Position numbers and translations under genes: made by a program
In this document: positions 10,589 to 64,000 of the stretch, piece by piece
How the letters are laid out: every line of letters begins with the position of its first letter
Position numbering within the stretch: position 1 is the first letter of the stretch
The notes under the pieces: generated by a model
What the model was told of the DNA's origin: nothing
What the model saw: only the letters and a program-made list of their open reading frames with translations
Databases searched by the model: none
DNA from: Roseibium sp. TrichSKD4
GTDB taxonomy: Bacteria; Pseudomonadota; Alphaproteobacteria; Rhizobiales; Stappiaceae
Reading direction: 5' to 3'
DNA length: 64,000 nucleotides
Assembly (NCBI RefSeq): GCF_000148725.1
Contig: NZ_GL476320.1
Coordinates: 933,932-997,931, forward strand

Positions 10589-11596
10589 GTGACCATCAAA
10601 TCCGCCATATTGCCGCTTCACGGGGTGCCTGAACCCCTGAATGAGATATTGACTGCGCTCTGCGTTGTGGGGCGCGATCTGTCCAGAACCATTGCTCAAG
10701 GGGTACTGGCCGCGGAACTTGGAGCGACCATAGGCGGCACGGCGCATGGCGATGATCAAAAGGCGCTGGATGTCATGGCCGATGAAGCCTTCGCCGAAGC
10801 GCTTATGGGTGTGGACGTTCGCTGGTACGCATCTGAAGAACGTGAGGACGTGATTGAGCTGGATTCAAAAGGCGAATACGCGCTGGCAATTGATCCGCTG
10901 GATGGTTCCTCAAATATTGATGTGAACGTGTCCATCGGCACCATCTTTTCCATCTTCAAGGCCGAGCCGGAAGGCGAAGCTTCCTTCTTGCGGCCTGCCG
11001 GAGAGCAGGTGGCAGCTGGCTACCTGATTTACGGCCCTCAGACGGCCTTGATGCTGACATATGGCGAGGGCGTCCGTCACTACATTTTGGACCCGGTTTC
11101 TCGGACATTCAAACTCGTGGATGCGAATGTGCGCATTCCCGAAAAGTCGAGTGAATTTGCCATCAATGCCTCCAACTATCGGCATTGGTCGAAGCCGATC
11201 CGTGCCTATATCGACGACTGCATCGCAGGGGCTGAAGGACCGCGTGAGAAGAACTTCAACATGCGCTGGGTTGCGTCGCTTGTCGCGGAAACCCATCGGA
11301 TTATGAGCCGGGGCGGTTTGTTCCTTTATCCCGGTGATGACCGCGACGGTTACAAGCAGGGCCGACTTCGCATGATCTACGAATGTGCGCCGATCGCCTT
11401 TTTAATTGAGCAGGCTGGCGGCAAGGCCACAACGGCGGTGGAACCCATTTTGAGCCAAACGGCCGGGACGCTTCATGCACGCACGCCCTTCGTCTTCGGA
11501 TCTTCGGAAAAGGTAGAGCGTGTGGCTGCCTATCACGATCTGCCGGAAAAGGAAGTTTCGGCACTGTTTGGAAACCGCGGCCTGTTCCGCGCCTGA
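10589..11596 (+). CDS. cbbF: Class I fructose-1,6-bisphosphatase
   Basis: About 335 residues. The FBPase I metal sites are clear: EER after [24 protein letters not shown], and the C-terminal [21 protein letters not shown]. It hydrolyses fructose-1,6-bisphosphate, and in many bacteria sedoheptulose-1,7-bisphosphate, in the regeneration phase of the Calvin cycle. First gene of the cbb operon, with a GTG start set by the GGGAGG site. All genes to 25544 follow on the same strand with short gaps or overlaps. Confidence 0.93.
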
Positions 11597-11657
11597 TCAC
11601 AACACGTAAATCACGATCAATGACCGGCTGAGCATTTCGCCGGATCGGGGAGACTTC

Positions 11658-12530
11658 ATGTCCAGAAAGCACCCAATCATATCGGTTACAGGGTCATCCG
11701 GTGCGGGCACAACAACCGTCAAGACCACCTTCGACCAGATCTTTCGCCGCGAGAGCGTGAAGGCCGTCTCTATCGAAGGCGATGCTTTTCACCGCTTTGA
11801 TCGGGCGGAGATGAAAGCCGAATTGGAGCGGCGCAAGGCTTCTGGCGACGATACGTTCAGCCATTTCTCCTATGAAGCGAATATTCTGAGCAAGCTGGAA
11901 GAAGTGTTTCGCACCTATGGCCAGACAGGGACCGGTGAAACCCGCCATTACGTCCATGACGATCTTGAGGCGGAGAAGTGGGGTGTTGAACCGGGCAAAT
12001 TTACCGACTGGAAGTCGTTTGAGGACGGGTCGGAGCTGCTCTTCTACGAAGGCCTTCACGGGGCCGTGGTCAATGACGAGGTCAATCTCGCGGAGCATGC
12101 TGACCTCAAGATTGGCGTTGTTCCGGTCATCAATCTGGAATGGATCCAGAAAATTCATCGTGACAAGGCGAGCCGGGGTTATTCCACCGAAGCGGTGACC
12201 GACACCATCCTGCGCCGGATGCACGCCTATGTGCATTGCATCTGCCCGCAGTTCATCCAGACGGATGTCAACTTCCAGCGTGTGCCGGTTGTCGATACGT
12301 CTGATCCCTTTGTGGCCCGCTGGATACCGACGGCAGACGAGAGCCTCGTGGTGATCCGGTTCCGCAATCCGCGCGGCATCGATTTCCCCTATCTGACGTC
12401 CATGATCCACGGCAGCTGGATGAGCCGGGCCAATTCCATCGTCATTCCCGGCGGCAAACTCGATCTCGCCATGCAGCTCATTTTCACCCCGATGGTGGAC
12501 CGCCTTGTCCACGAATCCAAACGTGCGTGA
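11658..12530 (+). CDS. cbbP: Phosphoribulokinase
   Basis: 290 residues of the proteobacterial PRK type. The P-loop [11 protein letters not shown] is at about residues 11-21, followed by [10 protein letters not shown] and the YEGLHGAV region near the active site. It phosphorylates ribulose-5-phosphate to RuBP, the RuBisCO substrate. A GGGGAGA ribosome site lies before the ATG. This enzyme plus RuBisCO makes the operon diagnostic for a working Calvin cycle. Confidence 0.96.
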
Positions 12531-12540
12531 GGGAGCGGTC

Positions 12541-14550
12541 ATGACCCTTCATCCTGCTGTTCAAACCACTGAAGACCTGATGGCCAACGCGATCCGGGCG
12601 CTCGCCATGGATGCTATCCAGAAGGCCAATTCCGGACATCCCGGCGCGCCGATGGGGCTCGCGGATGTGGCGACCGTGTTGTTCAATCGCTTCATCGAGA
12701 TCGATCCGTCAGAACCCGATTGGCCGGACAGGGACCGCTTTGTCCTATCAGCCGGTCATGCCTCCATGCTCGTTTACGCCATTAATCACTTGCTCGGGTT
12801 TGACGACATGGACATAGAGCAATTGAAGTCCTTCCGCCAACTGGGTGCGCGTACAGCCGGGCATCCGGAATATGGTCATGCCAAGGGCATTGAAACGACG
12901 ACGGGGCCGCTGGGGCAGGGGATTTCAACCGCCGTCGGTATGGCGCTGGCAGAGCGCATGCACAATGCCCGCTTTGGCGATGATCTGGTCGATCACTTTA
13001 CCTATGTGCTGGCCGGAGACGGGTGCCTGATGGAAGGCATCTCGCACGAAGCCAACGATATGGCTGGGCATTTGGGGCTTGGCCGTCTGATCGTCTTTTG
13101 GGATGACAACTCCATCACGATTGACGGCAAGACCGATCTGTCCACCTCCATGGATCAAAAGGCCCGCTTTGCAGCGGCCGGTTGGCACGTTGTTGCGGTT
13201 GATGGTCACAACAAGCAGGAGATTGCCGCTGCTATCGAGGTCGCGCGGGCGGATGGTCGTCCGTCGCTGATCGCCTGCAAGACGATCATCGGGTTCGGTG
13301 CTCCAAACAAGCAGGGAAAGGCTGCGACACATGGCTCGCCACTGGGAGCAGACGAAATTGCTGCGACCCGCGCCCAGCTGAACTGGACGCATGAGGCTTT
13401 CCATGTACCAAATGAAGTTTATGAAGCATGGAGAGCAGTGGCGCGACGAGGTGCTGTTGCCCGCAGTGCCTGGTTCAAGCGGTGGGAAGGTGCATCGGCA
13501 CGCGAAGTCTTTTCCAGGTCGCTGACCAAGCCGGATTCGAAGGCTATCTCCGAAGCGTTTCAAACTTACAAGAGCGCCCAGATTGCCGCTGCGCCCAAGA
13601 TCGCGACTCGCAAGGCGTCGGAAATGGCGCTTGAAGTTCTAAATGGCGTCATCAGCAATCTTGCTGGCGGATCGGCTGACCTCACGGGTTCCAACAATAC
13701 CCGAACCAAGGAAATGACCGCAGTCAGCCGCGGCTGTTTCGGCGGCAATTACATTCACTATGGCGTCCGTGAACACGGCATGGCTGCAGCCATGAACGGG
13801 ATCGCGCTCCATGGCGGGTTCATTCCCTATGGCGGGACATTCCTGGTCTTTGCCGATTATGCACGTGGGGCCATGCGCCTTTCAGCGCTGATGGGGGTGC
13901 CGGTCACCTATGTGATGACCCATGACTCTATCGGTCTAGGAGAAGATGGGCCCACCCACCAGCCGGTCGAAACACTGGCCAGTTTGAGGGCAATGCCGAA
14001 CCTCACCGTGCTCCGCCCGGCGGATGTGATCGAGACGGCAGAAGCCTGGGAAATTGCCGTCACCTCCCGAAACACGCCAACGGTGTTGTGCCTGTCCCGA
14101 CAAGGGTTGCCGACGCTCCGCAGGGATGGGGCGGCTGGCAACCCGACAGCCAAGGGCGCTTACCTCCTGAAGGAAGTCGGCGGCACACGGGATCTCACCC
14201 TTATTGCAACAGGCTCGGAAGTTGAGATTGCCATGTCCGCTGCCGAAAAACTGGAGGCGGACGGCCTGAAGGTTGCCGTAGTTTCTGCGCCATCCTTCGA
14301 GCTTTTTGCCGTGCAGCCAGAAACTTATCGGGAGGCCGTTCTGGGCCTTGCTCCGCGGATCGGAGTGGAAGCGGCCGTTCGGCAAGGTTGGGATCTGTTT
14401 CTGCGCCCGGATGATGCATTCATCGGCATGAACAGCTTTGGGGCCTCGGGCCCGGCGGCAGATCTCTACGGCCATTTCGGCATCACCAAGGAAGCGGTCA
14501 TTGCAGCCGCGCGAGACCTCGTATCCGGAGACAAGAAGAATGACAATTAA
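12541..14550 (+). CDS. cbbT: Transketolase
   Basis: 669 residues from the ATG at 12541, which follows a GAGGGAG site next to the cbbP stop; earlier in-frame codons overlap cbbP. The thiamine diphosphate motif GDGCLMEG...[19 protein letters not shown], the [14 protein letters not shown] substrate region and the pyrimidine-domain segments [14 protein letters not shown] and [18 protein letters not shown] are present. It transfers two-carbon units in the regeneration phase. Its last codons overlap the next gene by 11 bases. Confidence 0.95.
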
Positions 14551-15541
14551 GGTTGGGATCAACGGCTTTGGTCGGATCGGACGCAATGTCCTCAGAGCCA
14601 TCGCGGAATCCGGACGCACAGACATTCAGGTCGTTGCCATCAACGATCTGGGGCCGGTTGAAACCAACGCGCATCTTTTGCGCTATGACAGTGTTCATGG
14701 CCGATTTCTGGGCACCGTTTCGGTCGAGGGAAACACCGTTGATATCGGTACCGGACCGATCCGTGTGACCTCTGAGCGTGATCCCAAGGATCTGCTGTGG
14801 GACGATGTCGATATCGCGATGGAATGCACCGGCATTTTCACTGCGCGGGACAAGGCCGCTCTTCATCTGGAAAACGGGTCCAAGCGTGTGCTGGTCTCCG
14901 CGCCCGCCACCGGGGCAGACAAGACAATCGTGTTTGGTGTCAATCACGACGCTCTGGCCAGCGATGATCTCGTTGTCTCCAATGCGTCGTGCACGACCAA
15001 CTGCCTGTCGCCGGTCGCGAAGTCGCTGAATGATGCAATCGGCATCAATCGCGGGTTCATGACCACGATCCATTCCTACACCGGCGACCAGCCGACGCTC
15101 GATACGATGCACAAGGATCTGTACCGGGCACGGGCCGCGGCGCAATCCATGATCCCGACATCCACGGGGGCGGCCAAAGCGGTCGGGCTGGTGCTGCCGG
15201 AGTTGAACGGCAAGCTGGACGGCGTTGCGATCCGGGTACCGACACCGAATGTATCGGTTGTCGATCTGGTGTTTGAAGCCTCGCAGACGACAAGCGTCGA
15301 AGAGGTGAATGCGGCGATCCGCGCTGCTGCGGATGGCCCGATGAAAGGCATCCTCGGCTACACCGACGCCTCAAATGTCAGCATCGATTTCAACCACGAC
15401 CCTCATTCCTCGATCTTCCACATGGACCAGACCAAAGTCATGGATGGTTCGATGGTGCGTATCCTGAGCTGGTACGACAATGAGTGGGGGTTCTCCAACC
15501 GCATGGCCGACACGGCTGTTGCCATGGGGAGGCTGCTATGA
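14540..15541 (+). CDS. cbbG: Glyceraldehyde-3-phosphate dehydrogenase
   Basis: 333 residues from the ATG at 14540. The Rossmann motif [15 protein letters not shown] is at the N-terminus, the catalytic cysteine lies in [12 protein letters not shown], and the phosphate site is STGAAKAVG. In the operon it works in the reductive direction on 1,3-bisphosphoglycerate. Overlaps cbbT by 11 bases at its start and cbbK by four at its stop, so the three are translationally coupled. Confidence 0.95.
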
Positions 15542-16752
15542 CCCTTGGAACCTTGCGCAGCATTGACAGTGCGGATGTGAGGGGCAAGACCGTCCTGATC
15601 CGGGCGGACCTGAATGTTCCCATGCAGGATGGCGCAATCACCGACGCAACGCGCATCTCCCATTTCGCACCAACGGTTTCCGGTCTGGTGAACAGAGGTG
15701 CGGCAGTCGTCATCGCCACCCATCTCGGGCGTCCCAAAGGTGAGCCGAATCCGTGCCTCTCTACCCGGCCAATTGCACAGGCGCTGGAAGAAGCCCTCGG
15801 GCGTCCGGTGGTCTTCGCGAAAGATTGTGTCGGCGAGCCTGCGGAAAGCGCGACGGCTGACTTGCAGCCGGGGCGCGTAGTCGTGCTTGAGAACCTCAGG
15901 TTCCATGCGGGTGAGATGGAAAACAGCCGCAACTTTGCAATGCGTCTGTCGGTCAATGGCGACATCTATGTCAATGATGCGTTCTCCTGTGCCCATCGGG
16001 CGCATGCATCGACCCATGCCATTACGGATCTGATGCCGAGTTATGCGGGGCCCTCGCTTCTGGCTGAAGTCGCTGCGCTGGAAGCAGCGCTTGTGTCGCC
16101 TGAAAGACCAGTTGTTGCGGTTGTTGGCGGCGCCAAGGTGTCGACGAAAATTGCGGTCCTGAAAAACCTGATGAACAAGCTGGATGCGGTCATCATCGGC
16201 GGCGGCATGGCAAATACGTTCCTCTATGCCAACGGCGTCCCGATGGGCAAATCCCTGCACGAGGCGGATCAGGTTGAGACCGTTCGAGAGATCGAGCAGT
16301 TGGCGGAAAAAGCCGGGTGCATGATCTGTCTGCCCACCGACGTTGTCGTGTCTCGCGAGTTCACGGCCAACGCACAGAACCGGACCGTGCCAGTCGACGG
16401 ATGCCCGGTGGATGCAATGATTTTGGACGCCGGTCCTGAAAGCACGCGGCGGTTTCAGGAGCTGATCACCAGCGCAAAGACAGTGCTCTGGAACGGGCCT
16501 CTCGGGGCTTTCGAGATCCAGCCCTTTGACCGGGCAACGGTCAATCTTGCCCGCATCGCGGCACAGCGCACCGCGGAAGGCGCGTTGGTCAGCATCGCCG
16601 GGGGCGGTGACACCGTGGCGGCGCTGAATGCCGCCGGAGTGTCCAACGACTTCACTTATGTCTCCACCGCCGGTGGAGCCTTTCTGGAATGGCTGGAAGG
16701 CAAGACCCTTCCGGGAATCGCGGCGCTCATGTCCGCTAACGAAGCTGCCTGA
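15538..16752 (+). CDS. cbbK: Phosphoglycerate kinase
   Basis: 404 residues. The signature [11 protein letters not shown] is near the N-terminus, the substrate loops include THLGRPKG and [11 protein letters not shown], and the nucleotide region reads [10 protein letters not shown] followed by [13 protein letters not shown]. It makes 1,3-bisphosphoglycerate in the reductive phase. The ATG overlaps the upstream TGA (ATGA). A longer antisense frame covers this gene but has no family features. Confidence 0.95.
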
Positions 16753-16768
16753 CAAGGGGAGGACAGAC

Positions 16769-17848
16769 ATGGCGCTTATCACGCTTCGCCAGTTACTGGA
16801 CCACGCTGCAGAACATGATTACGGCGTTCCGGCCTTTAACATCAACAACATGGAGCAGGGGCTCGCCATCGTGAAGGCGGCGGCGGCAACGGATTCTCCT
16901 GTGATCCTGCAGGCCAGTCGTGGCGCGCGTTCCTACGCGGGCGATATAATGCTGCGCAACATGGTTCAGGCTCTGGCTGAGATGAATCCGGACATTCCGA
17001 TTGTCCTGCATCAGGACCACGGAAACAACGAGGCGACGTGCCTCTCGGCAATCCGCTACGGCTTCACTTCGGTCATGATGGATGGCTCGCTGGAAGCCGA
17101 TATGAAGACCCCGGCAAGCTACGACTACAATGTCGATATAACCAACAAGGTCAGTCTGGCTGCGCATGCGGTCGGGGCCTCGGTTGAAGGTGAACTCGGT
17201 GTTCTGGGGTCGCTGGAAACCGGCGAGGCGGGCGAGGAGGATGGCTCTGGCGCTGAAGGCAAACTGAGCCATGATCAGCTCCTAACTGATCCGGATCAGG
17301 CTGTCGACTTTGTTCTGGCAACCAAGTGCGATGCTCTGGCCATTGCCTGCGGCACCAGCCACGGCGCCTACAAGTTCAGCCGCAAGCCGGACGGGGAAAT
17401 CCTCTCCATGTCCACCATCTCCGCGATCCACGAAAAACTGCCGGATACACATCTTGTGATGCACGGTTCCAGCTCGGTTCCGCAGGAGCTGCAGGATCTG
17501 ATCAACGCCCATGGCGGCGACATGCCCCAGACTTACGGCGTTCCGGTGGAAGAGATCGAGCGTGGCATCAAGATGGGTGTGCGCAAGGTCAATATCGACA
17601 CCGATTGCCGGATGGCCATGACCGGTCAGTTCCGCAAGGTGGCCCAGGAAAAACGGGCCGAGTTTGATCCGCGCAAGTTCCTCATCCCGGCAATGGCCGA
17701 ACTGGAAGTGCTCTGTAAGGACCGGTTCGAACGCTTTGGCACGGCAGGCAACGCCTCGAAGATCAAACCGATTTCCCTCGACGATATGGCCAGGCGCTAC
17801 GCAAGCGGCGCGCTGGACCCAAAAACAGCTGCCGCCCGCGCCGCATGA
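16769..17848 (+). CDS. cbbA: Class II fructose-1,6-bisphosphate aldolase
   Basis: 359 residues from the ATG at 16769 ([10 protein letters not shown]), 16 bases after cbbK. Zinc and substrate motifs [42 protein letters not shown] and [13 protein letters not shown] are visible. This is the cbbA type, which condenses DHAP with G3P or with erythrose-4-phosphate in the regeneration phase. Confidence 0.95.
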
Positions 17849-17900
17849 CGGGCAACGACACCTTCAACGGATTTAACCGCATCAAACGGGAACCATGATC

Positions 17901-19334
17901 ATGAACGCTCAAAATCCACCGGGAAAATACTCAGCTGGTGTCAAGGAATACCGCGAGACCTATTGGGAGCCGAACTACACGCCTAAGGAAAGCGACATTC
18001 TCGCCTGTTTCAAGATCACGCCGCAGGCGGGTGTACCGCGCGAAGAAGCCGCCGCCGCTGTTGCCGCTGAAAGCTCTACCGGCACATGGACAACGGTCTG
18101 GACCGATCTTCTGACAGATCTGGAATACTACAAGGGCCGCGCCTACGCGATTGAGGACGTTCCGGGCGACGATGAAAGCTACTACGCCTTCATCGCGTAC
18201 CCGATGGGTCTTTTCGAAGAAGGCTCTGTCGTCAACGTGTTCACATCGCTGGTCGGTAACGTATTCGGCTTCAAGGCCGTGCGCGCCCTGCGTCTCGAAG
18301 ACGTGCGCTTTCCGCTCTGGTTCGTTGCGACGTGTGACGGCCCGCCCCATGGCATTCAGGTCGAGCGCGACAAACTCGACAAATATGGCCGTCCGTTCCT
18401 CGGCTGCACCATCAAGCCGAAACTCGGCCTGTCGGCCAAGAACTATGGCCGGGCTGTCTATGAAGCCCTGCGGGGTGGTCTCGACTTCACCAAGGATGAC
18501 GAGAACGTCAACTCCCAGCCCTTCATGCGCTGGAGAGATCGTTTCGAGTTCTGTCAGGAATCGATTGAAAAGGCCGAGAAGGAAACTGGCGAGCGCAAGG
18601 GCCACTATCTGAACGTGACCGCGCCGAACATCGAAGAGATGTACAAGCGGGCGGAATTTGCCAAGGAGCTCGGTACGCCGATCATCATGTCGGACTACCT
18701 GACCCTTGGTTGGGCCGCACAGGCCAGTCTGTCGCGTTGGTGCCGGGACAACGGGATGCTGCTCCACGTTCACCGCGCGATGCATGGTGTGATCGACCGT
18801 CACCCGAAACACGGCATCAACTTCCGCGTTCTGGCCAAGATGCTGCGCCTTCTTGGCGGTGATCACCTGCATTCCGGCACTGTAGTCGGCAAGCTGGAAG
18901 GCGACCGCGCGGCAACACTGGGCTGGATCGACCTGATGCGTGAAAAGGTGGTCAAGGAAGATCGCTCACGCGGCATCTTCTTCGATCAGGACTGGGGTCA
19001 GATGCCGGGGGTTATGCCTGTGGCATCGGGCGGTATCCATGTCTGGCACATGCCTGCGCTCGTCAACATCTTCGGCGACGATGCCTGCCTGCAGTTCGGC
19101 GGCGGCACGCTAGGTCACCCCTGGGGCAACGCGGCAGGCGCGGCAGCTAACCGCGTAGCTGTCGAGGCCTGCGTGAAGGCGCGTAACGAGGGGCGCGAGC
19201 TGGAAAAGGAAGGCAAGGACATCCTGACCAAGGCCGCCCAGTACAGCCCGGAACTGAAGATCGCCATGGAGACATGGAAAGAGATCAAGTTCGAGTTCGA
19301 CACCGTCGACAAACTGGATGTGGCGCACCGCTAA
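17901..19334 (+). CDS. cbbL: RuBisCO large subunit, form IA (green type)
   Basis: The ATG at 17901 (MNAQNPPG) is preferred over 17895 because the GGGA ribosome site is better spaced; this gives 477 residues. Active-site elements are intact: KPKLGLS, the carbamylated lysine K198 in [17 protein letters not shown], and loop-6 K331 in GKLEGDRA. The N-terminal [14 protein letters not shown], the [16 protein letters not shown] segment and the C-terminal EFDTVDKLD are form IA features, unlike red-type form IC. That agrees with the cbbQO activase genes downstream and the absence of cbbX. It carboxylates RuBP, or oxygenates it to phosphoglycolate. Confidence 0.97.
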
Positions 19335-19380: not shown

Positions 19381-19740
19381 ATGAGTGACGTACAAGACTA
19401 CAGCTCCCGGCTTTCCGACCCGAACAGCCGCAAGATGGGAACGTTCTCCTATCTGCCGCAACTGACCGATGACGAATTGCGGAGCCAGGTGGAGTACATC
19501 GTAGCCAAGGGCTGGAACCCGGCCATTGAGCACACCGAGCCGGAAAACGCGACCTCAAACTATTGGTACATGTGGAAGCTGCCGATGTTTGGGGAAACGG
19601 ATGTCGATGCCGTTTTCCAGGAAGTCGAGCTTTGCAAGACCGCCAACCCGAACAACCACGTGCGGCTGATCGGTTACGACAATTTCAAGCAGTCCCAGGG
19701 CACGGCCATGGTCGTGCACCGCGCCGAAATCAGCGCGTGA
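19381..19740 (+). CDS. cbbS: RuBisCO small subunit, form IA
   Basis: 119 residues with the small-subunit core [28 protein letters not shown] and [14 protein letters not shown]. It is short, as in form IA, without the C-terminal extension common in red-type subunits. Follows cbbL after 46 bases with an AAGGATG-like site, and is followed by a strong hairpin that should set cbbLS mRNA abundance. Confidence 0.96.
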
Positions 19741-19746: not shown

Positions 19747-19778
19747 CGGCAGGCATGGCTCCCCGCGCATGCCTGCCG
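19747..19778 (+). terminator. Strong hairpin between cbbS and cbbQ
   Basis: A perfect 11-bp stem (CGGCAGGCATG / CATGCCTGCCG) with a 10-base loop begins seven bases after the cbbS stop. A few T residues follow (CCCTTTT). It probably acts as a partial terminator or RNA processing/stability element, keeping cbbLS mRNA high relative to cbbQO. Confidence 0.65.
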
Positions 19779-19819
19779 CCGGATCCCTTTTGAGTTTTGG
19801 AATAAAGGACAGGCGAGCC

Positions 19820-20662
19820 ATGAGCGAAATCGATCCCAACCAGTTTCGCATCGAAACAGAGCCTTACTACCGGCCCGTCGGAAACGAGATCGAACAGTTT
19901 GCGGCTGCCTATGACGTGCGCATGCCGGTAATGATGAAAGGCCCAACGGGATGCGGCAAGTCGCGTTTTGTCGAATACATGGCCTACAAGCTGGGCAAGC
20001 CGCTGATCACCGTTGCCTGTAACGAGGACATGACCGCCTCGGATCTGATTGGACGCTTCCTGCTCGATATCAACGGCACCAAATGGCAGGACGGCCCGTT
20101 GACGATCGCCGCGAGGATCGGCGCGATCTGCTATCTCGACGAGGTGGTGGAAGCCCGCCAGGACACGACCGTTGTCATCCATCCGTTGACCGATCATCGC
20201 CGCCAGTTGCCGCTTGAAAAGAAAGGCGAATTGGTCAACGCGCATCCCGACTTTCAGGTCGTGATCTCCTACAATCCCGGCTACCAGTCGATGATGAAGG
20301 ACCTGAAGCAGTCCACGAAGCAGCGCTTCGGGGCGATGACCTTCGATTTTCCGACAGCAGATATCGAGGGCGAGATTGTCGCGCACGAGGCGGGCGTTGA
20401 CCGCAAGGTGGCGGAGCGTCTGGTTCAGGTGGCACAGCGCTCTCGTAACCTGAAGGGCCATGGGCTGGACGAGGGCATGTCGACGCGCCTACTGGTCTAT
20501 GCGGGACAGTTGATCGCTCAGAAAATTCCGCCGCACGCTGCCTGTCAGATGGCGCTTGTGGAACCGCTGACCGATGACCCTGATATGCGGGACACGCTGC
20601 AGGCCGCGGTCAGCACCTTCTTTCCGGAAATCACTGATAGCAGCAAAGACCGCGCTGCATGA
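19820..20662 (+). CDS. cbbQ: RuBisCO activase AAA+ subunit
   Basis: 280 residues of the MoxR-branch AAA+ family (CbbQ/NorQ/GpvN). The Walker A is GPTGCGKSR at about residues 41-49, Walker B is AICYLDEVVEAR, and the sensor region is QVVISYNPGY. It hydrolyses ATP as a ring and, with CbbO, removes inhibitory sugar phosphates from form IA or form II RuBisCO. The ATG at 19820 is preferred over an earlier in-frame ATG at 19769 that overlaps the hairpin. Its stop overlaps the cbbO ATG. Confidence 0.94.
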   Translation: MSEIDPNQFRIETEPYYRPVGNEIEQFAAAYDVRMPVMMKGPTGCGKSRFVEYMAYKLGKPLITVACNEDMTASDLIGRFLLDINGTKWQDGPLTIAARIGAICYLDEVVEARQDTTVVIHPLTDHRRQLPLEKKGELVNAHPDFQVVISYNPGYQSMMKDLKQSTKQRFGAMTFDFPTADIEGEIVAHEAGVDRKVAERLVQVAQRSRNLKGHGLDEGMSTRLLVYAGQLIAQKIPPHAACQMALVEPLTDDPDMRDTLQAAVSTFFPEITDSSKDRAA

Positions 20663-22989
20663 GTGTTAATCTCGAGCAATATCGCGACGAGTTGATTGAG
20701 GCCGCTCCCGAACTGGCCGAGATGCTCGATGGGCTGTTTCACGAAGCCGCACGCATGATGTCGCCTGCGGGCCTGAAAGACTATTTGGATGGCGCACGGG
20801 CAATGATCTCGTTGCGCAAGGGGCCAAACCTGCTGGTCTCTTACCTCGATGAAATGCCGCAAGTCGTGCGCGAGTGCGGCGAAGACATCATCCGTGATGT
20901 GGTTGGCGCGACGCTCAAGCTGTCCTCCATGGTTTCGGGCGAAATCCTGACGCTGATGATTTCCACGCTGCCGGGCGCGGCCAACCGCTTCGGGGATGCG
21001 GACTTGCTGCGCGGCTATTTGCAGCTACTGCACCGCCTCGCTGCGCGCGCACCCCGTGGCTTGCGTCCCATGCTGGGCGTTCTGGAAGAACTGCTCTCAA
21101 AACTCACCTTGTCGGGCCTGCGCCGCTGGGTGGATTTCGGCTCGGACGCCTATCGGCGCGATTTGCCCAAACAGGCAGATTATTTCGGTCTCGTCAGCGA
21201 GGATTCGCGTGCGGTTTTGAAGCAGGAGCGGCGTGGAACCCTGTTCATTGAATCCCAGCGGCGGTTGAACTTCTATCTGCGTGCCTTCTGGGGACGAGAC
21301 TTCTTTCTTAGGCCAAGCGCAGCTGATCACGAAGGGTTTCGCCCGTTCATCGAAGGCGGGGCCATGCACTTGCCCGATGCGGTTGATGACATGGAGGGTG
21401 TGAGCGGGCTCGATCTTTACCGCGCCATGAGTGCGCATATGGCCGCCCACATCACCAGCTCTGACAAAGGCCTCAGTCAGCTGGCGCTTAATCCGGGGCA
21501 GATATTCTTTGTCGGTCTCATTGATGATGCGCGGGTTGAATTTAGTGCAATTCGTCAATTCCCCGGTCTCCGATCTCTGTTTCGCTCGCTGATGCCGGTG
21601 TCGCCAAAGGGCTATTACGAGCACGAAACCATGTATTTGGTGGAGGCCACGGCCCGCGCGCTGTTGGAACCTGGTGTCTCAACCGGGGATCGTGCAATCG
21701 ACGCCTTGGTCGAGCAGTTTCATCTCAATGTCGGAACCAATGAGCGCGAGACCATGTTCTCCTGGGGGCTGGGTGTTGAGCTCTATTCCATTCTGGCGGA
21801 TCGCCGCGCCGTGCCGAGCCTTCGCATTTTGGAGCAGCTGAACATACCGTACCGCGATGACAATCGCTTCCTTTGGTCGCTGGATGATTTCGACTGGTCG
21901 AACAGCTCCGCCTATCAGCCGGATTTTCAGGCGCAGCTTCGTCGGAATGTCGGCTTGATGGAGTTCGTCAATGAAGTGGAGGTCGAGACGGCTGGCGACG
22001 ATGCGCAGGAAGTCTGGGTGCTTTCCAGCGAGTTGTTCCCATATGAAGATGAGGGCGTTTCCTATAACGACATGGAAGGCAAGGAGCCTGTCTCCGATCC
22101 GTTCTACTATGGCGAGTGGGACTACAAAGTTCAACTGACTCGCCCGAGCTGGTCCACCGTGTATGAGCGCCGTCAGGGGCGGGGCGATCCCGATACAATC
22201 GACGAGGTTTTGACCGCCCATAAAGGCGTGAGCCACCGCATCAGGCAAATTGTTGACCGGCTGCGTCCGCAAGGTATCTCGCGTCAGAGACGGCTGGAAG
22301 ATGGCGACGAGCTGGATATCAATGCGGCTGTGGATGCTGTCGTCATGAGTCGGATCGGCATGCAGCCGGACCCGCGGATCACCATGCGCAATGTGTTGAA
22401 CAAGCGCGATCTTTCGGTGCTGATCCTGCTGGACCTGTCTGAATCCACCAATGAACTGGTGCGTGGCAGCGATCGAACCGTGCTGGATCTTACCCGAGAT
22501 GCCTGCGCACTGCTCGCAAACGCAATCAACGGCATCGGCGATCCTTACGCGATCCACGGGTTTGCTTCTGATGGTCGACACGATGTCCAGTATTACCGGT
22601 TCAAGGATTTTGAGCAGCGGTTCGACCCGGATGTCAAAAGCCGTCTGGCCGGGATGAGTGGAGGATTGTCGACCCGCATGGGCGCGGCGATGCGTCATGC
22701 GGCGCATCATTTGGGTCAGCGCGGCGAGCGGCACAAGCTCTTGCTGATCGTCACGGACGGGGAACCGGCGGATATCGATGAGCGGGACCCGCAATATCTG
22801 CGCATGGATGCCAAACAGGCAGCAGTGGAGCTGCAGCAGAAAGGCGTCACCAGCTACTGCCTGACGCTGGACCCGGAAGCAGACCGCTATGTGGAGCGTA
22901 TCTTCAGGGCCAGCAACTACACCATCGTCAACCAGGTTGAGCGGCTGCCGGAAAAGCTTCCGGTGCTCTTTGCCAATTTGACCAAATAA
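20659..22989 (+). CDS. cbbO: RuBisCO activase adaptor with VWA domain
   Basis: 776 residues, the usual CbbO size. The C-terminal von Willebrand A domain shows an intact MIDAS: DLSES around residue 595, then GLSTRMG and VTDGEPADI. The N-terminal two thirds is helical and binds RuBisCO and CbbQ in characterised systems. The ATG overlaps the cbbQ stop by four bases, so the two activase subunits are coupled. Confidence 0.94.
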   Translation: MSVNLEQYRDELIEAAPELAEMLDGLFHEAARMMSPAGLKDYLDGARAMISLRKGPNLLVSYLDEMPQVVRECGEDIIRDVVGATLKLSSMVSGEILTLMISTLPGAANRFGDADLLRGYLQLLHRLAARAPRGLRPMLGVLEELLSKLTLSGLRRWVDFGSDAYRRDLPKQADYFGLVSEDSRAVLKQERRGTLFIESQRRLNFYLRAFWGRDFFLRPSAADHEGFRPFIEGGAMHLPDAVDDMEGVSGLDLYRAMSAHMAAHITSSDKGLSQLALNPGQIFFVGLIDDARVEFSAIRQFPGLRSLFRSLMPVSPKGYYEHETMYLVEATARALLEPGVSTGDRAIDALVEQFHLNVGTNERETMFSWGLGVELYSILADRRAVPSLRILEQLNIPYRDDNRFLWSLDDFDWSNSSAYQPDFQAQLRRNVGLMEFVNEVEVETAGDDAQEVWVLSSELFPYEDEGVSYNDMEGKEPVSDPFYYGEWDYKVQLTRPSWSTVYERRQGRGDPDTIDEVLTAHKGVSHRIRQIVDRLRPQGISRQRRLEDGDELDINAAVDAVVMSRIGMQPDPRITMRNVLNKRDLSVLILLDLSESTNELVRGSDRTVLDLTRDACALLANAINGIGDPYAIHGFASDGRHDVQYYRFKDFEQRFDPDVKSRLAGMSGGLSTRMGAAMRHAAHHLGQRGERHKLLLIVTDGEPADIDERDPQYLRMDAKQAAVELQQKGVTSYCLTLDPEADRYVERIFRASNYTIVNQVERLPEKLPVLFANLTK

Positions 22990-24866: not shown

Positions 24867-24881
24867 CCACGGAAAGCCCGA

Positions 24882-44005: not shown

Positions 44006-44062
44006 TGATGAGCCAAAATCACTCCCTTACGAAATCAAACCAATTTGTCCATTAAGCGCTGA

Positions 44063-47695: not shown

Positions 47696-47704
47696 GAGGC
47701 GAAA

Positions 47705-49776: not shown

Positions 49777-49787
49777 AGGAGGCCACG

Positions 49788-53395: not shown

Positions 53396-53410
53396 GATTA
53401 GGAAATCGAC

Positions 53411-54706
53411 ATGAATGTCCTCCATAAACAGAACGCCTTCTTCACCCAATCGCTCGCCGAGCGTGACCCGGAGCTCTTCGGCTCCATCACCGGTGAGCTG
53501 GGCCGCCAGCGTGACGAGATCGAGCTGATCGCCTCGGAAAACATCGTCTCCCGCGCCGTGATGGAAGCGCAGGGCAGCGTGATGACCAATAAATACGCCG
53601 AAGGTTACCCCGGTCGCCGCTATTACGGGGGCTGTGACTGGGTCGATGTGGCGGAAAACCTGGCCATCGCGCGCGCCAAAGAGCTGTTCAACTGCGACTT
53701 TGCCAACGTCCAGCCAAACTCCGGCTCGCAGGCCAACCAGGGCGTGTTCCAGGCGCTGATCCAGCCGGGCGACACGATCCTGGGTATGTCGCTGGACGCA
53801 GGCGGTCACCTGACCCATGGTGCGCGGCCCAACCAGTCCGGCAAATGGTTCAACGCGGTGCAATACGGTGTGCGCCAACAGGACAATATGCTGGATTACG
53901 ACCAGGTCGAAGCGCTGGCCAAAGAACACCCGCCGAAACTCATCATCGCCGGTGGTTCGGCCATCCCGCGCCAGATCGACTTCAAGCGCATGCGCGAGAT
54001 TGCCGATATGGTCGGCGCCTACCTGCATGTGGATATGGCGCATTTTGCCGGTCTGGCGGCGGCGGGTGAACATCCTTCGCCCTTCCCGCACGCCCATGTG
54101 GCCACCACCACGACCCATAAAACTCTGCGCGGCCCGCGCGGCGGCATGATCCTCACCAATGACGAGGCGATTGCGAAAAAGGTCAATTCCGCCATCTTCC
54201 CCGGCATTCAGGGCGGTCCGCTCATGCATGTGGTCGCTGCCAAGGCCGTGGCCTTTGGCGAGGCGCTGCGCCCGGAATTCAAGACCTACCAGAAGCAAGT
54301 GATCAAAAACGCCCAGGCGCTCAGCGATCAGTTGATCAAGGGCGGGCTGGACACCGTAACCCATGGCACCGACACCCATGTGGTGCTGGTGGATCTGCGC
54401 CCCAAAGGGGTCAAGGGCAACGCGACGGAAAAGGCGCTCGGACGCGCGCATATTACCTGCAACAAGAACGGCGTGCCCTTTGATCCGGAAAAGCCCACCA
54501 TCACCTCCGGCATCCGCCTGGGCTCGCCTGCTGGCACCACCCGTGGCTTTAGCGAGGCCGAGTTCCGCCAGATCGCCGACTGGATCATCGAGGTTGTGGA
54601 CGGTCTGGCCGCCAATGGCGAAGACGGCAATGCAGAGGTCGAGGCCAAGGTGAAGGCCGAGGTTGAGGCCCTTTGCGCCGGCTTCCCGATTTATCCGGAT
54701 CTTTGA
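53411..54706 (+). CDS. glyA: Serine hydroxymethyltransferase
   Basis: 431 residues. [38 protein letters not shown] and the PLP lysine in [16 protein letters not shown] are intact. Combines glycine with methylene-THF to form serine, the C1 entry of the serine cycle. Last gene of the operon. Its base composition looks richer in G+C, with strongly C/G-ending codons, than ppc just upstream, so it may have a separate history. A hairpin follows the stop. Confidence 0.95.
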
Positions 54707-54755: not shown

Positions 54756-54855
54756 TGTATTGTCGCGGGTTCAGATCGCTATGTCCATCGTCAGGGATTT
54801 TTGGGCAGATATGAGTTTTGTTTAAGGGAGTATCTGGCTCATCTGTTTGTCGATA

Positions 54856-55836
54856 TTAGGCGGCCTGTTTGCGGTGTTGCAAGCGGCGTTGTTCGATGGT
54901 GCTTTGTTTGATCCTTTCTCGTTTGCGCAGGATTTGTTCGCCGCGCCCGAAGTAGACGTCAGCGGGTGTGAGGTTCTTCAAGCTCTCGTGATATCGGTGA
55001 TGATTGTAGTGGCTGATGAACTTGCTTATTTGGGCTTTGAGGTCACCGGGCAGGAAGTAGTTCTCCAGAAGGATCCGGTTTTTCAAGGTCTGATGCCATC
55101 TTTCGATCTTGCCCTGCGTTTGGGGGTGGTATGGGGCTCCACGCACATGGTCCATGCCTTTGTCGTCGAGCCAGTCGGCCAGCTCACCGGCGAAGTAACT
55201 TGACCCATTGTCCGACAACAGTCTTGGCCGGTGGCGGACACTGGCCTGATTACAGCCTGAAGCCTGTAAGGCCAGTTCCAACGTATCCGTGACATCACTG
55301 GCCAACATCGTCGTACACAGCTTCCACGCGATGACATAGCGGCTGTAATCATCAAGGATTGTTGACAGGTAAAACCAACCCCAGCCAATAACCTTCAGAT
55401 AGGTGAAGTCTGTCTGCCACAGCTCATTGGGCGCTGTGGTCTTGTTCTTGAACTCGTCAGCTGCCTTGACCACGATAAAGGCCGGATTGGTGATGAGGTC
55501 ATGGGCTTTCAGCAACCGGTAAACACTGGCCTCAGACACGAAGTACTGCTTTGTGTCCGTAAACTGGACAGCCAGCTCCCGAGGTGAGAGTTCCGGTTCT
55601 TCCAGGGCCAGATCAATGACCTGTTGGCGGATATCATCGGGGATCCGGTTCCAGACCCGTGCAGGCATGGGGGCCGTGTCCTGCAAGGCATCTATGCCAC
55701 CGGTTTGATATTTGTCATACCAGACGTAGAAGGTTGACCTTGGAATACCCAGCCGATCCAGCGTCTGTCTGACTGGAAGATGGGACTGCTCCACCAGTCG
55801 AATGATTTCAAGTTTCTCGGAGGCGGGATATCTCAT
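54856..55836 (-). CDS. IS3-family transposase OrfB, element C
   Basis: 326 residues, the same protein as the OrfB at 42633-43613, with an intact DDE core (WQTDFTYLK, SDNGSSYFAG, GKIERWHQ). The frameshift run is at 55864-55871. Confidence 0.93.
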   Translation of the reverse strand: MRYPASEKLEIIRLVEQSHLPVRQTLDRLGIPRSTFYVWYDKYQTGGIDALQDTAPMPARVWNRIPDDIRQQVIDLALEEPELSPRELAVQFTDTKQYFVSEASVYRLLKAHDLITNPAFIVVKAADEFKNKTTAPNELWQTDFTYLKVIGWGWFYLSTILDDYSRYVIAWKLCTTMLASDVTDTLELALQASGCNQASVRHRPRLLSDNGSSYFAGELADWLDDKGMDHVRGAPYHPQTQGKIERWHQTLKNRILLENYFLPGDLKAQISKFISHYNHHRYHESLKNLTPADVYFGRGEQILRKRERIKQSTIEQRRLQHRKQAA

Positions 55837-56228
55837 TCGTCGTCGACCCCATCCCCGATCATGCTTTTTTTGAGAAGGCGAAGTTCCAGAGCCTGTTCTG
55901 CAACCACTTCCTTCAAGTCCCTCGTCTCTTTGCGAAGAGACTTTACTTCATCAGAACTGGCTTCACGAGCTGCGTCCCCAGCAAGCCGTTTCTTGCCCGC
56001 TTCCATGAAGTCCTTGGACCAGGAATAATACTGGCTCTGGGCGATACCTTCCTGGCGGCAAAGTTCTGCAATGCTGTCTTCGCCTCGAAGACCAGAAACC
56101 ACTATGCGGATCTTCTCTTCAGCGGAAAACCGACGGCGGGTCTGGCGTTTGATGTCTTTTACGATCCAATCCGCATCGTCGGTCACTCGATCCTTCTTTC
56201 GTCTCATCATTTGCTCCTGAGTTAGCAA
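55833..56228 (-). CDS. IS3-family OrfA, element C
   Basis: 131 residues, the same as OrfA of element B except for one visible substitution (DADWIVKD here, DADRIVKD in B). Helix-turn-helix plus leucine zipper. Confidence 0.92.
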   Translation of the reverse strand: MLTQEQMMRRKKDRVTDDADWIVKDIKRQTRRRFSAEEKIRIVVSGLRGEDSIAELCRQEGIAQSQYYSWSKDFMEAGKKRLAGDAAREASSDEVKSLRKETRDLKEVVAEQALELRLLKKSMIGDGVDDE

Positions 56229-56371
56229 TGATGAGCCAAAATCACTCCCTTACGAAATCAAACCAATTTGTCCATTAAGCGCTGACGGAGGACAATGACC
56301 AAAAATCAGAAATACTTAATAAGTGAATATTACGGGATAAAGTAATTTCTGTTCATAGTAGCCTTTTTAAA

Positions 56372-58027
56372 CGGATATTTCCCAAGTAACTGTGTGTTGC
56401 GACGAGGTTGACCGTTTTCACGGACGTTTGCAACTCTGACGGCAGCGTTGTCGGGGCGATTATCGATTTTGACGGTTACGTAAGCGCGGTTTTTGAGCTT
56501 TTCGTGGACTTTATCCCGTTTGGGCTGCGACAAGACACAGCTGTGGAGCCGCATTTGTGTTGGTTTCGTTGTTTGGAGCGTCATGCAGGCCTCGGCGGGG
56601 GCTTGAGGGCGCGGATTGCGGCGAGGATTCGTCCGAAGACGTAGCCTGATACAGCCACCTCTGCCAGTTGGAACGTGATTTTGCGCGCATGGCGTACGAC
56701 CTTTGCCCCGATTTTGATGAGGCGGCTCTGGATACTTGTCAGCGACCAGTCGGCGACCTCTTCCGGGAGGTCTAGCCCTTGCAGGAAGACACCAAGGTTA
56801 TACGCCAATGCGTGAAGCTGAAGCCGGACCTCATTGTCACAGAACCGCTTGCAGGACAGGCGGGTCCAAGTGATGGCGTTCTTGCCTTCTTTGATGTGCT
56901 GTTCGGCTGTGCCGCGCTGATTGTAGAAGCGGATGATCCATTCCGGCTCCATCGGCAAGTTGGTGACGACAAAACCCACGCGAGGGAATAGATCACCGGG
57001 ATACCATTCGATCTTGGCAACCACCTGACGGGGCTTGCTCCATGAAGCAGCCTGATACTCAAAAACCTCATAGAAGCGCTTGATCTTTGTCTTTGAGGGA
57101 CGTCCCACGGGGCGGGTCAGCTGATGGCTGATCTTCTCTTCCAGCACAGCGTTCTTTTTGAGGCGGATGGCGTAGCGGTACCCTTCAGCCTCTAAAGTCT
57201 CGTAAAGTTCCGGAATGGCAAAGGCGGCATCAGCGCGAAAGAAGCGCATGATGTCGCGCTCTGCATAGCGCGCAATGACGGGTATCAGAAGAGCCTTCCA
57301 GTCATCCGCGCTGTGGACGCTGCCATTGCGCAGGGCACAGCGTTCCAAGTGGCCAAACTGATTGAAGATGAACAATGGGTGATAGCAGTTGCAGCCGAAA
57401 TGCCCGTTCCATGCGGTTCCCTCCTGAGCGCCATGGGTGGGGCTGACAGAGCTATCCATGTCCAAGGTGATGTAGTTCAGTCCTTGGCGACCATGCACCG
57501 CATCAATCCATTGACCGGGCATATCGGCCAAGGCTTCCCTGTTGGCGGCAGTCGCGAGCACCTCAGTCTCAAAGCGGCCCATCTGGGAGGAGGATGCCGC
57601 CTGAGTGTCAACGGCACGGCCCCCGATAATCTGGCGCATTACCGGGTCACGCGACAGACGCACGGCATCATTCACATCTTCATAGCCCGCAAGGCGACCA
57701 AATATCGATTGGCGCAGCAGGCCCATCAAGGTGTGAACGCCATTCTTACCTTTGCGGGTATCCCGAAGGAACCGAACCGCTTTGCCGAAAAGGCCAAGGG
57801 CGTCATCAAGCTCCCGGTAAAGCAGAAGACCGCCATCAGAACTGATCTTTGAACCGTGGAATTCCAACCGCACCCGAGGGTCAAAATCCAGCCGAAAATC
57901 GCTCTCAGAACCCGCACCCGTTGGGTGTGCCATTTTTCAGCCCTCCGTCATCAAGTAACACGCTGTAATATAAAGAGAAAAATAGGATAGAAGAAGCTAA
58001 ATCAGCTGACTACTTGGGAAATCCGGG
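56372..58027 (-). mobile_element. IS1380-family insertion sequence, copy 2
   Basis: 1656 bp flanked by the 5-bp target repeat TTAAA (56367-56371 and 58028-58032). The ends and encoded protein match copy 1 at 32445-34100, and orientation is the same. The copies are direct repeats 23,927 bp apart. The insertion lies 77 bases from element C and just beyond the gmaS terminator. Confidence 0.94.
56581..57933 (-). CDS. IS1380-family transposase, copy 2
   Basis: 450 residues, the same as the copy 1 protein over its whole length, with an intact frame. Confidence 0.93.
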   Translation of the reverse strand: MAHPTGAGSESDFRLDFDPRVRLEFHGSKISSDGGLLLYRELDDALGLFGKAVRFLRDTRKGKNGVHTLMGLLRQSIFGRLAGYEDVNDAVRLSRDPVMRQIIGGRAVDTQAASSSQMGRFETEVLATAANREALADMPGQWIDAVHGRQGLNYITLDMDSSVSPTHGAQEGTAWNGHFGCNCYHPLFIFNQFGHLERCALRNGSVHSADDWKALLIPVIARYAERDIMRFFRADAAFAIPELYETLEAEGYRYAIRLKKNAVLEEKISHQLTRPVGRPSKTKIKRFYEVFEYQAASWSKPRQVVAKIEWYPGDLFPRVGFVVTNLPMEPEWIIRFYNQRGTAEQHIKEGKNAITWTRLSCKRFCDNEVRLQLHALAYNLGVFLQGLDLPEEVADWSLTSIQSRLIKIGAKVVRHARKITFQLAEVAVSGYVFGRILAAIRALKPPPRPA

Positions 58028-62639: not shown

Positions 62640-62649
62640 TGTTTCGTGG

Positions 62650-62868
62650 TCAGTATCTCTCGACACTTTCTTGGACGCGTTTGTGATCCAGCGCTCGTTT
62701 TTTGGCTTGTTCCAAGTGTTTGCCTTCTTCGACAAATTGAATGCGGTGCCAAGCTAGCCAGAAAATGACTCCAGCAATCACCATGGGCATTTCGAGGCCC
62801 TGGAATGGGTACATTGCACCCACATTGGCCAGATCGACGGCCCAATTTTCATAACCAATCGTAGACAT
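62650..62868 (-). CDS. Small membrane protein of unknown function next to amt
   Basis: 72 residues with one hydrophobic helix (MPMVIAGVIFWLAWHRI, about residues 28-44) and a charged C-terminal tail (EEGKHLEQAKKRALDHKRVQESVERY). It starts 12 bases after the ammonium transporter stop with an AGGAGG-like site, so it should be co-translated with it. I do not recognise a named family. The tight coupling suggests a membrane partner of the transporter, which would be inference. Confidence 0.7.
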   Translation of the reverse strand: MSTIGYENWAVDLANVGAMYPFQGLEMPMVIAGVIFWLAWHRIQFVEEGKHLEQAKKRALDHKRVQESVERY

Positions 62869-62880
62869 GTCGGTTCCTCC

Positions 62881-64000
62881 TTATTCTGCGGGTGGAGCTT
62901 TGGTAGCCAGATACTCTTTGTCTGCTTCGATGATTGCGCTCTTCGCATCCTCGTATGCTTGGTGTTCTGCGTAATCGAGCCCTTCCAGTTCGACTTCTTC
63001 GGGAATGCGCAGTACACCCGCACCAGCTTGTAATTTGGCAACCACATATGCAGGCAGGAAGCCAAGGCCAAAGAACATGATTAGTGCGCCCAGAAACTGG
63101 CCAATCGGGTTAATGGTTGCGTAGCCCTCATACGGAGATGAAGGAGCGCCCCAGAGCACAAATCCGCAGATGATTAGCCCAACAAATCCGGCGTATCCAT
63201 GAACAGCGACGGCCCCTACGGCATCATCGAGCTTGAAGCGGCGTTCCACCCAATAATGTAGCTTGTAGACAATCACGACGCCGATTGCGGCTACGAGCAT
63301 GGCCTGTACCGGATGGTACAAATCATTGCCTGCCGATGCTGTAATCACACCTGCCAGACCGCCGGAGAACGTCCAGAAAGCGTCGCCCTTGGACACGACA
63401 TAGGCTGCCATCAAACCACCGGAAAGGGACATCAGGAAGTTGAAGGTGATGGCTGAAAGCGTTGTTGGGCCGAGGTAGATGTTTGTCGCAGTCCAGGTTG
63501 TCCCTGTGATTTGACCATCAATGGCTTCCGGCGAGATGATCGGAACGTTGCATGCTGCATAAAAGCCCCAGAAGCCGGTGTAGATCAGGAAAATACCAAT
63601 CGTCAGCATCCATGGATTATGGGGTGGGATATCGCGCGGTGTGCCGTCCGCGGCAAACTTTCCAATGCGTGGACCCAGGACCATGATTACGCCAAGGGCA
63701 TAGCCTCCCGCGATGGCATGAATCACACCGGACGCATAGGCGTCGTGGTAGCCGAGGAACTGAACCATCCAACCGCCATAATGCCAGCCCCAAGCCGCAT
63801 CAATGATCCACCAAACCGATCCGATTAGGACTGCATGAACCCAAAGTGCAGATGACCGAATGCGTTCAATCACTGAGCCAGAGACGATCGATGCAGCTGT
63901 CCATGAGAAGAGAAGGAATGCCGCCCAAAAGACGCCTGTAATGCGATCCGAAGCGTTTGTGCCCATGGTCTCGGCCCAGGGCAAGTTGGCCGCACCGGCT
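62881..64000 (-). CDS. amt: Ammonium/methylammonium transporter (Amt family), 5' end beyond the window
   Basis: An open frame reaches the right window edge, so the N-terminus is missing; about 373 codons are visible. The Amt channel pattern is seen with many membrane helices, including GVFWAAFLLFSWTAASIVSGSVIERI, ASGVIHAIAGGYALGVIMVLGPRIG and the second-half AVHGYAGFVGLIICG, with channel-type histidines in both halves. A cytosolic tail of about 40 residues follows. Placement next to mgsABC and gmaS suggests methylammonium uptake as well as ammonium. Confidence 0.88.
   Translation of the reverse strand, partial: AGAANLPWAETMGTNASDRITGVFWAAFLLFSWTAASIVSGSVIERIRSSALWVHAVLIGSVWWIIDAAWGWHYGGWMVQFLGYHDAYASGVIHAIAGGYALGVIMVLGPRIGKFAADGTPRDIPPHNPWMLTIGIFLIYTGFWGFYAACNVPIISPEAIDGQITGTTWTATNIYLGPTTLSAITFNFLMSLSGGLMAAYVVSKGDAFWTFSGGLAGVITASAGNDLYHPVQAMLVAAIGVVIVYKLHYWVERRFKLDDAVGAVAVHGYAGFVGLIICGFVLWGAPSSPYEGYATINPIGQFLGALIMFFGLGFLPAYVVAKLQAGAGVLRIPEEVELEGLDYAEHQAYEDAKSAIIEADKEYLATKAPPAE

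Follow-up and report, generated by a model that had tools for sequence, protein, structure and literature searches.

The 64-kb stretch of Roseibium sp. TrichSKD4 DNA analyzed here (64,000 nucleotides of contig NZ_GL476320.1, called the window below) encodes enzymes of the Calvin cycle, folate-linked one-carbon (C1) metabolism, trimethylamine N-oxide (TMAO) uptake and demethylation, the serine cycle, and methylamine utilization. From 9.6 kb onward, the window probably holds a Roseobacter-type methylotrophy island (27–64 kb) to which a separately regulated Rhodobacteraceae-type form IA Calvin operon has been attached on the left; a decayed IS3-family insertion sequence (IS) lies at the join. Judged from gene content and order, the 27–64 kb part is of a known kind, the Roseobacter/Paracoccus methylotrophy island, and the Calvin operon at its left edge is the new part. 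A sequence-only reading of the same DNA had proposed a built C1 island; the compact island is real, but it is mostly of this known kind and only the Calvin attachment is unusual. Potentially, the genes describe a facultatively autotrophic methylotroph.

Gene Content of the Window

Genes were called from NCBIfam profile scans of 50 open reading frames (ORFs) and Pfam scans of 10 ORFs of the window. The names tmoX, mcl, sga, gmas, and mgs combine family matches with background knowledge of the pathways, whereas for Tdm the name comes straight from an equivalog model (1178 bits versus a cut-off of 1100). Rfam and tRNA scans of the window gave no matches. The features are as follows.

9564–10493 (−): cbbR, regulator of the LysR type, transcribed away from the Calvin operon (NF045990, 442 bits, slightly below the cut-off of 450)
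10586–17848 (+): fbp, prk, tkt, gap, pgk, fba (NCBIfam profiles)
17895–19334 (+): cbbL, form IA RuBisCO large subunit (profile; nearest solved relatives, e.g. 7smk and 1svd; tree)
19381–19740 (+): cbbS, RuBisCO small subunit (PF00101)
19769–22989 (+): cbbQ and cbbO, form IA-type RuBisCO activase (AAA match for cbbQ, VWA match for cbbO)
23017–25544 (+): rpe, alanine:glyoxylate-type aminotransferase, and pgp, phosphoglycolate phosphatase (pgp 175.8 bits, slightly below the cut-off of 180)
25872–26632 (strand not assigned): remnant of a decayed IS3-family element where the Calvin and folate genes meet (DNA similarity to plasmids)
27281–28957 (+): fhs, formate-tetrahydrofolate ligase (929 bits)
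29043–29942 (+): folD (497 bits)
29942–30826 (+): folD2, divergent FolD paralogue, catalytic Lys replaced by Gln (profile, alignment)
30897–31304 (+): truncated bacterial-like haemoglobin (globin; PF01152)
31440–34490 (+): IS3-family element, outer ends approximate, split by IS1380 copy 1
32445–34100: IS1380 copy 1, target repeats CTCAG
34533–35495 (−): LysR-type regulator adjoining the tmo genes (profile)
35715–42501 (+): tmoX, tmoW, tmoV, cupin, and tdm, for the uptake and demethylation of TMAO (profiles)
42559–44071 (−): IS3-family copy 1, without target-site repeat
44314–44532 (−): gck remnant, N-terminal 71 of 415 residues (55% identity to the full-length gck of genome G208)
44529–45506 (−): mcl, malyl-CoA lyase (profile)
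45607–46257 (−): NarL/LuxR-type response regulator (profile)
46325–46362: imperfect NarL-type palindromes in the gap separating the response regulator gene from sga
46451–54706 (+): sga, mtkA, mtkB, hpr, ppc, glyA (profiles; collinear in p-SCP4)
54782–56294 (−): IS3-family copy 2
56372–58027 (−): IS1380 copy 2, target repeats TTAAA
58138–64000 (−): gmas, mgsC, mgsB, mgsA, and an amt truncated by the end of the window (profiles; collinear in p-SCP4)

The folate C1 genes of the sequence-only reading (fhs, folD, and a second folD, by profile) and its TMAO uptake and demethylation genes (a tmoXWV-type ABC transporter, with Tdm above its cut-off) were borne out. Its N-methylglutamate genes were found in part: gmas, mgsA, mgsB, mgsC, and amt are present, but N-methylglutamate dehydrogenase (mgd) is not among the window ORFs scanned. 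Neither dimethylamine monooxygenase (dmm) nor Tmm was found among these ORFs, and all three may lie past 64 kb.

Conservation of the Island in Relatives

Plasmid p-SCP4 of Ponticoccus alexandrii carries, at 374–407 kb, the genes fhs-folD-folD2-tdm-gck-mcl-luxR-sga-mtkAB-hpr-ppc-glyA-gmas-mgsCBA-amt with the same order and orientation as in the window, and its island proteins are 50–90% identical to those of the window. The two differ as follows. (i) Formate dehydrogenase lies left of fhs in p-SCP4, where the window has the Calvin operon, and no window Calvin gene has a match within the 49 kb of p-SCP4 compared. (ii) The tdm gene of p-SCP4 is different (55% identity), and the tmo cassette and globin gene are missing between its folD2 and tdm. 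(iii) Its gck is full-length. (iv) No IS is listed inside the block in the PLSDB gene table, which is incomplete. In p-SCP4, dmm stands directly past amt, a position that here lies beyond the window end. Because p-SCP4 shares the window's orientation, the inversion of fhs-folD relative to Ruegeria (loci L002 and L155) was rejected as evidence of a recent event and is regarded as layout variation.

Similar blocks are found in other relatives. Genome G283 (loci L151/L152) has amt-mgsABC-gmas-fhs-folD-tdm-globin-gck-mcl-luxR-sga-mtkAB-hpr-ppc-glyA in a single run. On a Ruegeria conchae plasmid the order is amt-mgsABC-gmas-globin-folD-fhs-lysR-tmoXWV-cupin-tdm, with mtkA ~32 kb from tdm. No Calvin genes stand beside the island in the stretches compared from p-SCP4, G283, and the R. 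conchae plasmid. The tmo-tdm cassette of the window is 79.6% identical in DNA to the R. conchae plasmid over 6.5 kb; tmoXWV and tdm are 84–93% identical to their Ruegeria homologues and the cupin is 58–66% identical. The mcl identity is 85–91% in roseobacter relatives and 62% in genome G441. The set of Tdm loci comprised the best 80 of at least 585 matches, from which 48 loci were taken on and 46 genomes searched. Gene-by-gene comparison covered 39 of the 80 (L001–L036, L067, L072, and L079) with matches above 45% identity, and a second comparison, which included G336 and G283, used matches above 42% identity only. At least five of the 39 loci (L006, L011, L019, L020, and L030) have serine-cycle genes nearby, a count that the short flanks make a lower bound.

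The Calvin Operon and Its Origin

The Calvin unit (9.6–25.5 kb) comprises cbbR, fbp, prk, tkt, gap, pgk, fba, cbbL, cbbS, cbbQ, cbbO, rpe, the aminotransferase gene, and pgp, and its reading frames are full-length. Of the complete form IA Calvin operon that had been claimed, the form IA genes were confirmed and the unit was found to begin at cbbR (9564), but tpi and rpi, which are usual members, have no place in it among the window ORFs scanned. CbbL falls within the form IA clade of a 25-row tree, from which 11 rows of the 56–59% group (L103–L113) were left out, and is sister to the CbbL of genome G336 (97% identity, support 100/99). It is 78.8–83.3% identical to RuBisCO on Cereibacter, Nitrobacter, and Thiodictyon plasmids and 56–59% identical to the other form I group of the family; form IA and form IC are the labels that we take to apply to these RuBisCO groups. 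No carboxysome shell protein was found among the scanned proteins, and cbbS weakly matches the RuBisCO-small-like part of CcmM.

The cbbL-cbbS-cbbQ-cbbO block recurs in loci L118/L119 and, by annotation, in L156. It is also present as in the window in G336, G347, and Cereibacter pORIO1, the CbbL proteins of which are 83–97% identical to that of the window, but the surroundings vary. In G336, cbbR, fbp, prk, tkt, gap, and fba lie upstream in the order seen in the window; in G347, unlike the window, the sugar-phosphate genes are away from cbbL; and in pORIO1 there is just a regulator with cbbLSQO at that place. G336 has no Tdm match and an MtkA match of 52% at most. The GC content at third codon positions (GC3) is 0.58–0.74 for the Calvin genes (0.51 for cbbR) as against 0.43–0.61 for genes of folate, TMAO, and methylamine metabolism; the Calvin stretches of G336 have 62–63% GC. 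Gain of the Calvin operon by transfer, although unproved, is plausible from these comparisons. Three observations weigh against it: pgk of the window operon has no match above 42% in G336, the Calvin genes other than cbbL are 45–89% identical to those of G336, and the serine genes likewise have a raised GC3 (0.60–0.78). The range of 45–89% also argues against any recent exchange with G336. A promoter and terminator scan of 9.4–27.4 kb gave results at the level of chance.

The aminotransferase gene (23715–24866, +) lies inside the operon ahead of pgp, and the best PDB match of its product is 1vjo, an alanine:glyoxylate aminotransferase (347 bits). In the loci compared, no match to it exceeded ~31%, and none was found in L116–L132. 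Together with Pgp, this enzyme could possibly form a metabolic bridge in which glyoxylate derived from phosphoglycolate is converted to glycine, the acceptor of GlyA.

To the left of cbbR are, in order, genes for an oligopeptide-type binding protein and a truncated amidohydrolase and a malonate module. The amidohydrolase (1750–2646, +), of the allantoate/hydantoinase type, covers only positions 3–281 of the 413 in the model and is probably truncated. The malonate module (3020–9510: matB, malonyl-CoA synthase; mcd, malonyl-CoA decarboxylase; the TRAP transporter dctMQP; and gntR) adjoins the Calvin regulator, and its malonyl-CoA decarboxylase has matches in 24 of 54 genus genomes, at only 55–63% identity.

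Co-occurrence of Calvin and Serine-cycle Genes

The family sample comprised 394 genomes, with the RuBisCO and MtkA scans taken as one draw (the MtkA scan added no genome) at thresholds of E 1e-100 or better for form I RuBisCO and E 1e-150 or better for MtkA. Form I RuBisCO was found in 50 genomes (17 at 77–97% identity, one partial match at 92%, and the others at 56–59%) and MtkA in 94, about half of which have matches of 63–73% that may not all signify a serine cycle. The two occur together in a single genome, G441, as against 11.9 expected (Fisher p 1.1e-5). MtkA of the window type (81% identity or more) is present in 42 of the 394, none of which has form I RuBisCO (5.3 expected, p 0.005). 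Two points weigh against the apparent avoidance: the Fisher tests treat genomes as independent, without correction for common descent, and the difference is not significant when only the 18 form IA genomes are counted (one with MtkA versus 4.3 expected, p 0.086). Among 19 carriers of form IA RuBisCO, two have MtkA (66% or more) and none has Tdm. Conversely, none of the 46 Tdm-locus genomes searched has form I RuBisCO, the sole hit being a 28% match. In the Ruegeria atlantica genus set, two of 54 genomes have form I RuBisCO (78 and 87%), and a third has hits of 28–30% only.

Two genomes bear on the placement of the gene sets where both are present. In G065, the Calvin and C1 sets are on separate contigs, at least ~96 kb apart. 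In G441, the Calvin and MtkA sets are also on separate contigs but lie ~26 and ~4 kb from the contig ends, so that the two may still be linked there; the final 18.7 kb of the Calvin contig yielded no C1 island gene. Whether G441 has a serine cycle is, moreover, doubtful: its mcl, mtkA, and mtkB are at 62–70% identity, and the 36 kb examined around mcl-mtkA-mtkB contain none of hpr, ppc, and glyA. At least five plasmid records carry both MtkA and CbbL among the matches listed (40 of 85 for MtkA and 60 of 112 for CbbL), and the closest pair is ~210 kb apart, compared with an mtkA-cbbL distance of 28 kb in the window. No plasmid among 72,556 records covers 80% of either window query. A second case of linkage between a Calvin operon and such an island was not encountered among the genomes, loci, and listed plasmid matches searched. 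As to whether the modules are placed independently in relatives, the comparison of gene order gives a divided answer: the TMAO, serine, and methylamine genes do cluster in relatives, but the Calvin genes are apart from the rest in G065.

Predicted Carbon Flow and Regulation

From the enzyme families, TMAO would enter by TmoXWV and be converted by Tdm to dimethylamine and formaldehyde, while GmaS and the Mgs synthase would process methylamine. C1 units from both would reach methylene-tetrahydrofolate, which could pass to serine via GlyA and so into the serine cycle, or could alternatively be oxidized by FolD, FolD2, and Fhs through formate to CO2. RuBisCO could fix the CO2 so released, and the Calvin operon's own Pgp and glyoxylate aminotransferase would salvage phosphoglycolate. 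We infer that each route serves under its own conditions, rather than both forming one pathway.

FolD2 is 34% identical to the adjoining FolD. It has Gln in place of the catalytic Lys of the YxxxK motif and Glu at the second Asp position of KDxDG, and both changes are also present in the FolD2 orthologues of Ponticoccus (78% identity) and Paracoccus aminovorans (74%). In the available text on Escherichia coli FolD, the K54N mutant has undetectable cyclohydrolase and ~19% of dehydrogenase activity (PMC5688156). Because that mutant keeps some dehydrogenase but no detectable cyclohydrolase activity, FolD2 may represent a dehydrogenase-only FolD subfamily that is annotated as bifunctional.

Three modules have their own regulators: cbbR for the Calvin genes, lysR for the TMAO genes, and luxR for the serine-cycle genes. 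An alignment of 17 sequences (the window and 16 loci) revealed TACCCA/TGGGTA palindromes in the luxR-sga intergenic region, and the pattern was chosen by eye from this alignment. With up to two mismatches, TACCCA-NN-TGGGTA is present in the luxR-sga gap of the window (46258–46450) and in 11 of the 16 loci, the others being L011, L019, L020, L140, and L149. Over the whole window, three hits occur at up to two mismatches (0.83 expected), and among these the hit at 46325 lies near sga; a limit of three mismatches gives 14 hits (11.75 expected). The palindrome, of NarL type, is a likely operator of the serine-cycle genes. None of this type was found in the upstream gaps of cbbR/fbp, fhs, tmoX, and mgsA, a weak test of common control by the luxR regulator in which the region upstream of amt falls outside the window.

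These observations bear on the possibility that the Calvin, serine, TMAO, and methylamine modules were co-selected and are co-induced as an integrated island, so that CO2 and C1 units are assimilated in parallel. Their linkage over 54 kb, the full-length Calvin frames, the decay of the IS at the junction (which indicates that the linkage is not brand new), and the prediction, by family, that phosphoglycolate salvage would supply glycine as the GlyA acceptor are all consistent with such an arrangement. The separate local regulators, the absence of the serine-promoter palindrome ahead of the other modules as far as the window extends, the broken gck, and the single instance of linkage in what was searched (with G441 a possible second) argue against it, and we consider an integrated island unlikely. 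The proposal that the modules were built to work together is, accordingly, not upheld by the regulators, the palindrome, or gck.

The gck Remnant and the Serine Cycle

Most of the serine cycle had been placed in the window, and mcl, sga, mtkA, mtkB, hpr, ppc, and glyA are indeed there as full-length frames, but gck is a remnant. It occupies the usual place beside mcl (44526–44314) and comprises the first 71 of 415 residues, 55% identical to the full-length gck of G208; at the corresponding place gck is full-length in G208, G283, L011, and p-SCP4. The island of the window hence lacks a complete serine-cycle set including gck, although this is not a strict measure because relatives keep gck elsewhere. 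A match to the gck family was found in 17 of 19 genomes searched, several of the matches being weak and some away from the serine genes, and was absent in two (G159 and G043) despite their serine genes. G208 has a second gck copy; the genus set around it is a single genome and is uninformative. In Paracoccus aminophilus, gck is on another replicon and the cycle is apparently still relied on, according to the available text of the report (PMC4543880). Because gck is often weak, unlinked, or unmatched in relatives, the loss of the linked gene does not prove that the cycle is broken.

The truncation might mark a replacement in progress, in which the serine cycle decays after the arrival of the Calvin operon, gck first, and a serine-cycle methylotroph becomes autotrophic. 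The full-length gck at this place in relatives, the lower than expected co-occurrence of Calvin and serine genes in the family, and the weak, partial gck match in G065, which has both gene sets, point in this direction. Such a replacement nevertheless appears improbable, given the full-length frames of the remaining serine genes and the frequent separation of gck from them, including the genomes with no match, the second copy in G208, and the P. aminophilus arrangement. A related proposal, a carbon-assimilation switch in which the Calvin operon, bringing its own salvage of glyoxylate to glycine, replaced formate dehydrogenase at the island edge and the loss of gck left the serine enzymes as a photorespiratory and C1 salvage branch for RuBisCO, is slightly less probable.

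Mobile Elements and the Junction

Six IS elements or remnants are present in the region, which the sequence-only reading had not mentioned. The remnant at the Calvin/folate junction (25872–26632) shares 64–71% DNA identity with plasmid segments, among them ones from Phaeobacter and Roseibium, and two of the segments are annotated as IS3 transposase; the longest ORF of the remnant gave no transposase match in the profile scan. Since this element is decayed, the linkage of the Calvin and folate genes is not brand new. The two IS1380 copies are 100% identical and each is flanked by its own 5-base repeat (CTCAG and TTAAA); copy 1 cleanly splits a further IS3-family element (~31.4–34.5 kb). IS3-family copies 1 and 2 are 99.9% identical, and neither has a target repeat. 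Between copy 1 and the gck remnant is the tail of a reading frame (44072–44275, +), with no match among the loci compared.

A mosaic stitched together by IS elements, suggested by the presence of one at each module boundary beyond the Calvin operon, was rejected because p-SCP4 has the same order right of 27 kb with no listed IS. A composite transposon was rejected on the same ground and because each IS1380 copy has its own repeat and the IS3 copies have none. The elements thus appear mostly to decorate the island, with the Calvin/folate border and the tmo cassette remaining as candidates for a larger role. A misjoining of modules during assembly at near-identical IS copies, which the two repeat pairs of 99.9–100% identity at module borders and the IS3 copies without target repeats might suggest, is very unlikely because the Calvin/folate junction contains no window repeat, each IS1380 copy is bounded by a target repeat of its own, copy 1 interrupts one IS3 element cleanly, and the order right of 27 kb is that of p-SCP4.

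Comparison with Known Systems

Methylotrophy islands have been described in Paracoccus sp. N5 and numerous Roseobacter strains (PMC4543880), and P. aminovorans pAMV1 carries one of 40 kb (PMC8235418); in the available text of these two reports, such islands are on chromosomes, plasmids, or chromids. They contain genes for TMAO and methylamine oxidation, folate C1 metabolism, and the serine cycle in one block, and the serine-cycle genes of the window cluster with TMAO and methylamine genes in the same way. The text available for both reports does not place Calvin genes inside the islands, and relative to the islands as they are described there, the window adds the broken gck and the six IS elements or remnants. 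No published account of a Calvin operon inside such an island was found in a search that lay mostly outside the subscription literature.

The presence of both cycles in one organism has precedents, which weigh against the novelty of the combination. Both are reported for three of 17 Paracoccus strains (PMC4543880) and for Aminobacter lissarensis DSM 1086 (PMC8235418), so that coexistence as such is not new. For these facultatively autotrophic methylotrophs (Paracoccus N5, J39, and J55 and A. lissarensis DSM 1086), linkage of the two cycles is not mentioned in the available parts of the reports. Aerobic anoxygenic phototrophs are described, in the portion of the source available, as being without RuBisCO and PRK (PMC6052148), which makes a RuBisCO operon in a roseobacter-like genome ecologically interesting. 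A bacterium with both routes at a single locus would allow a direct test of whether they compete, alternate, or cooperate. It would also show that marine roseobacter methylotrophy islands are able to gain a CO2-fixing module.

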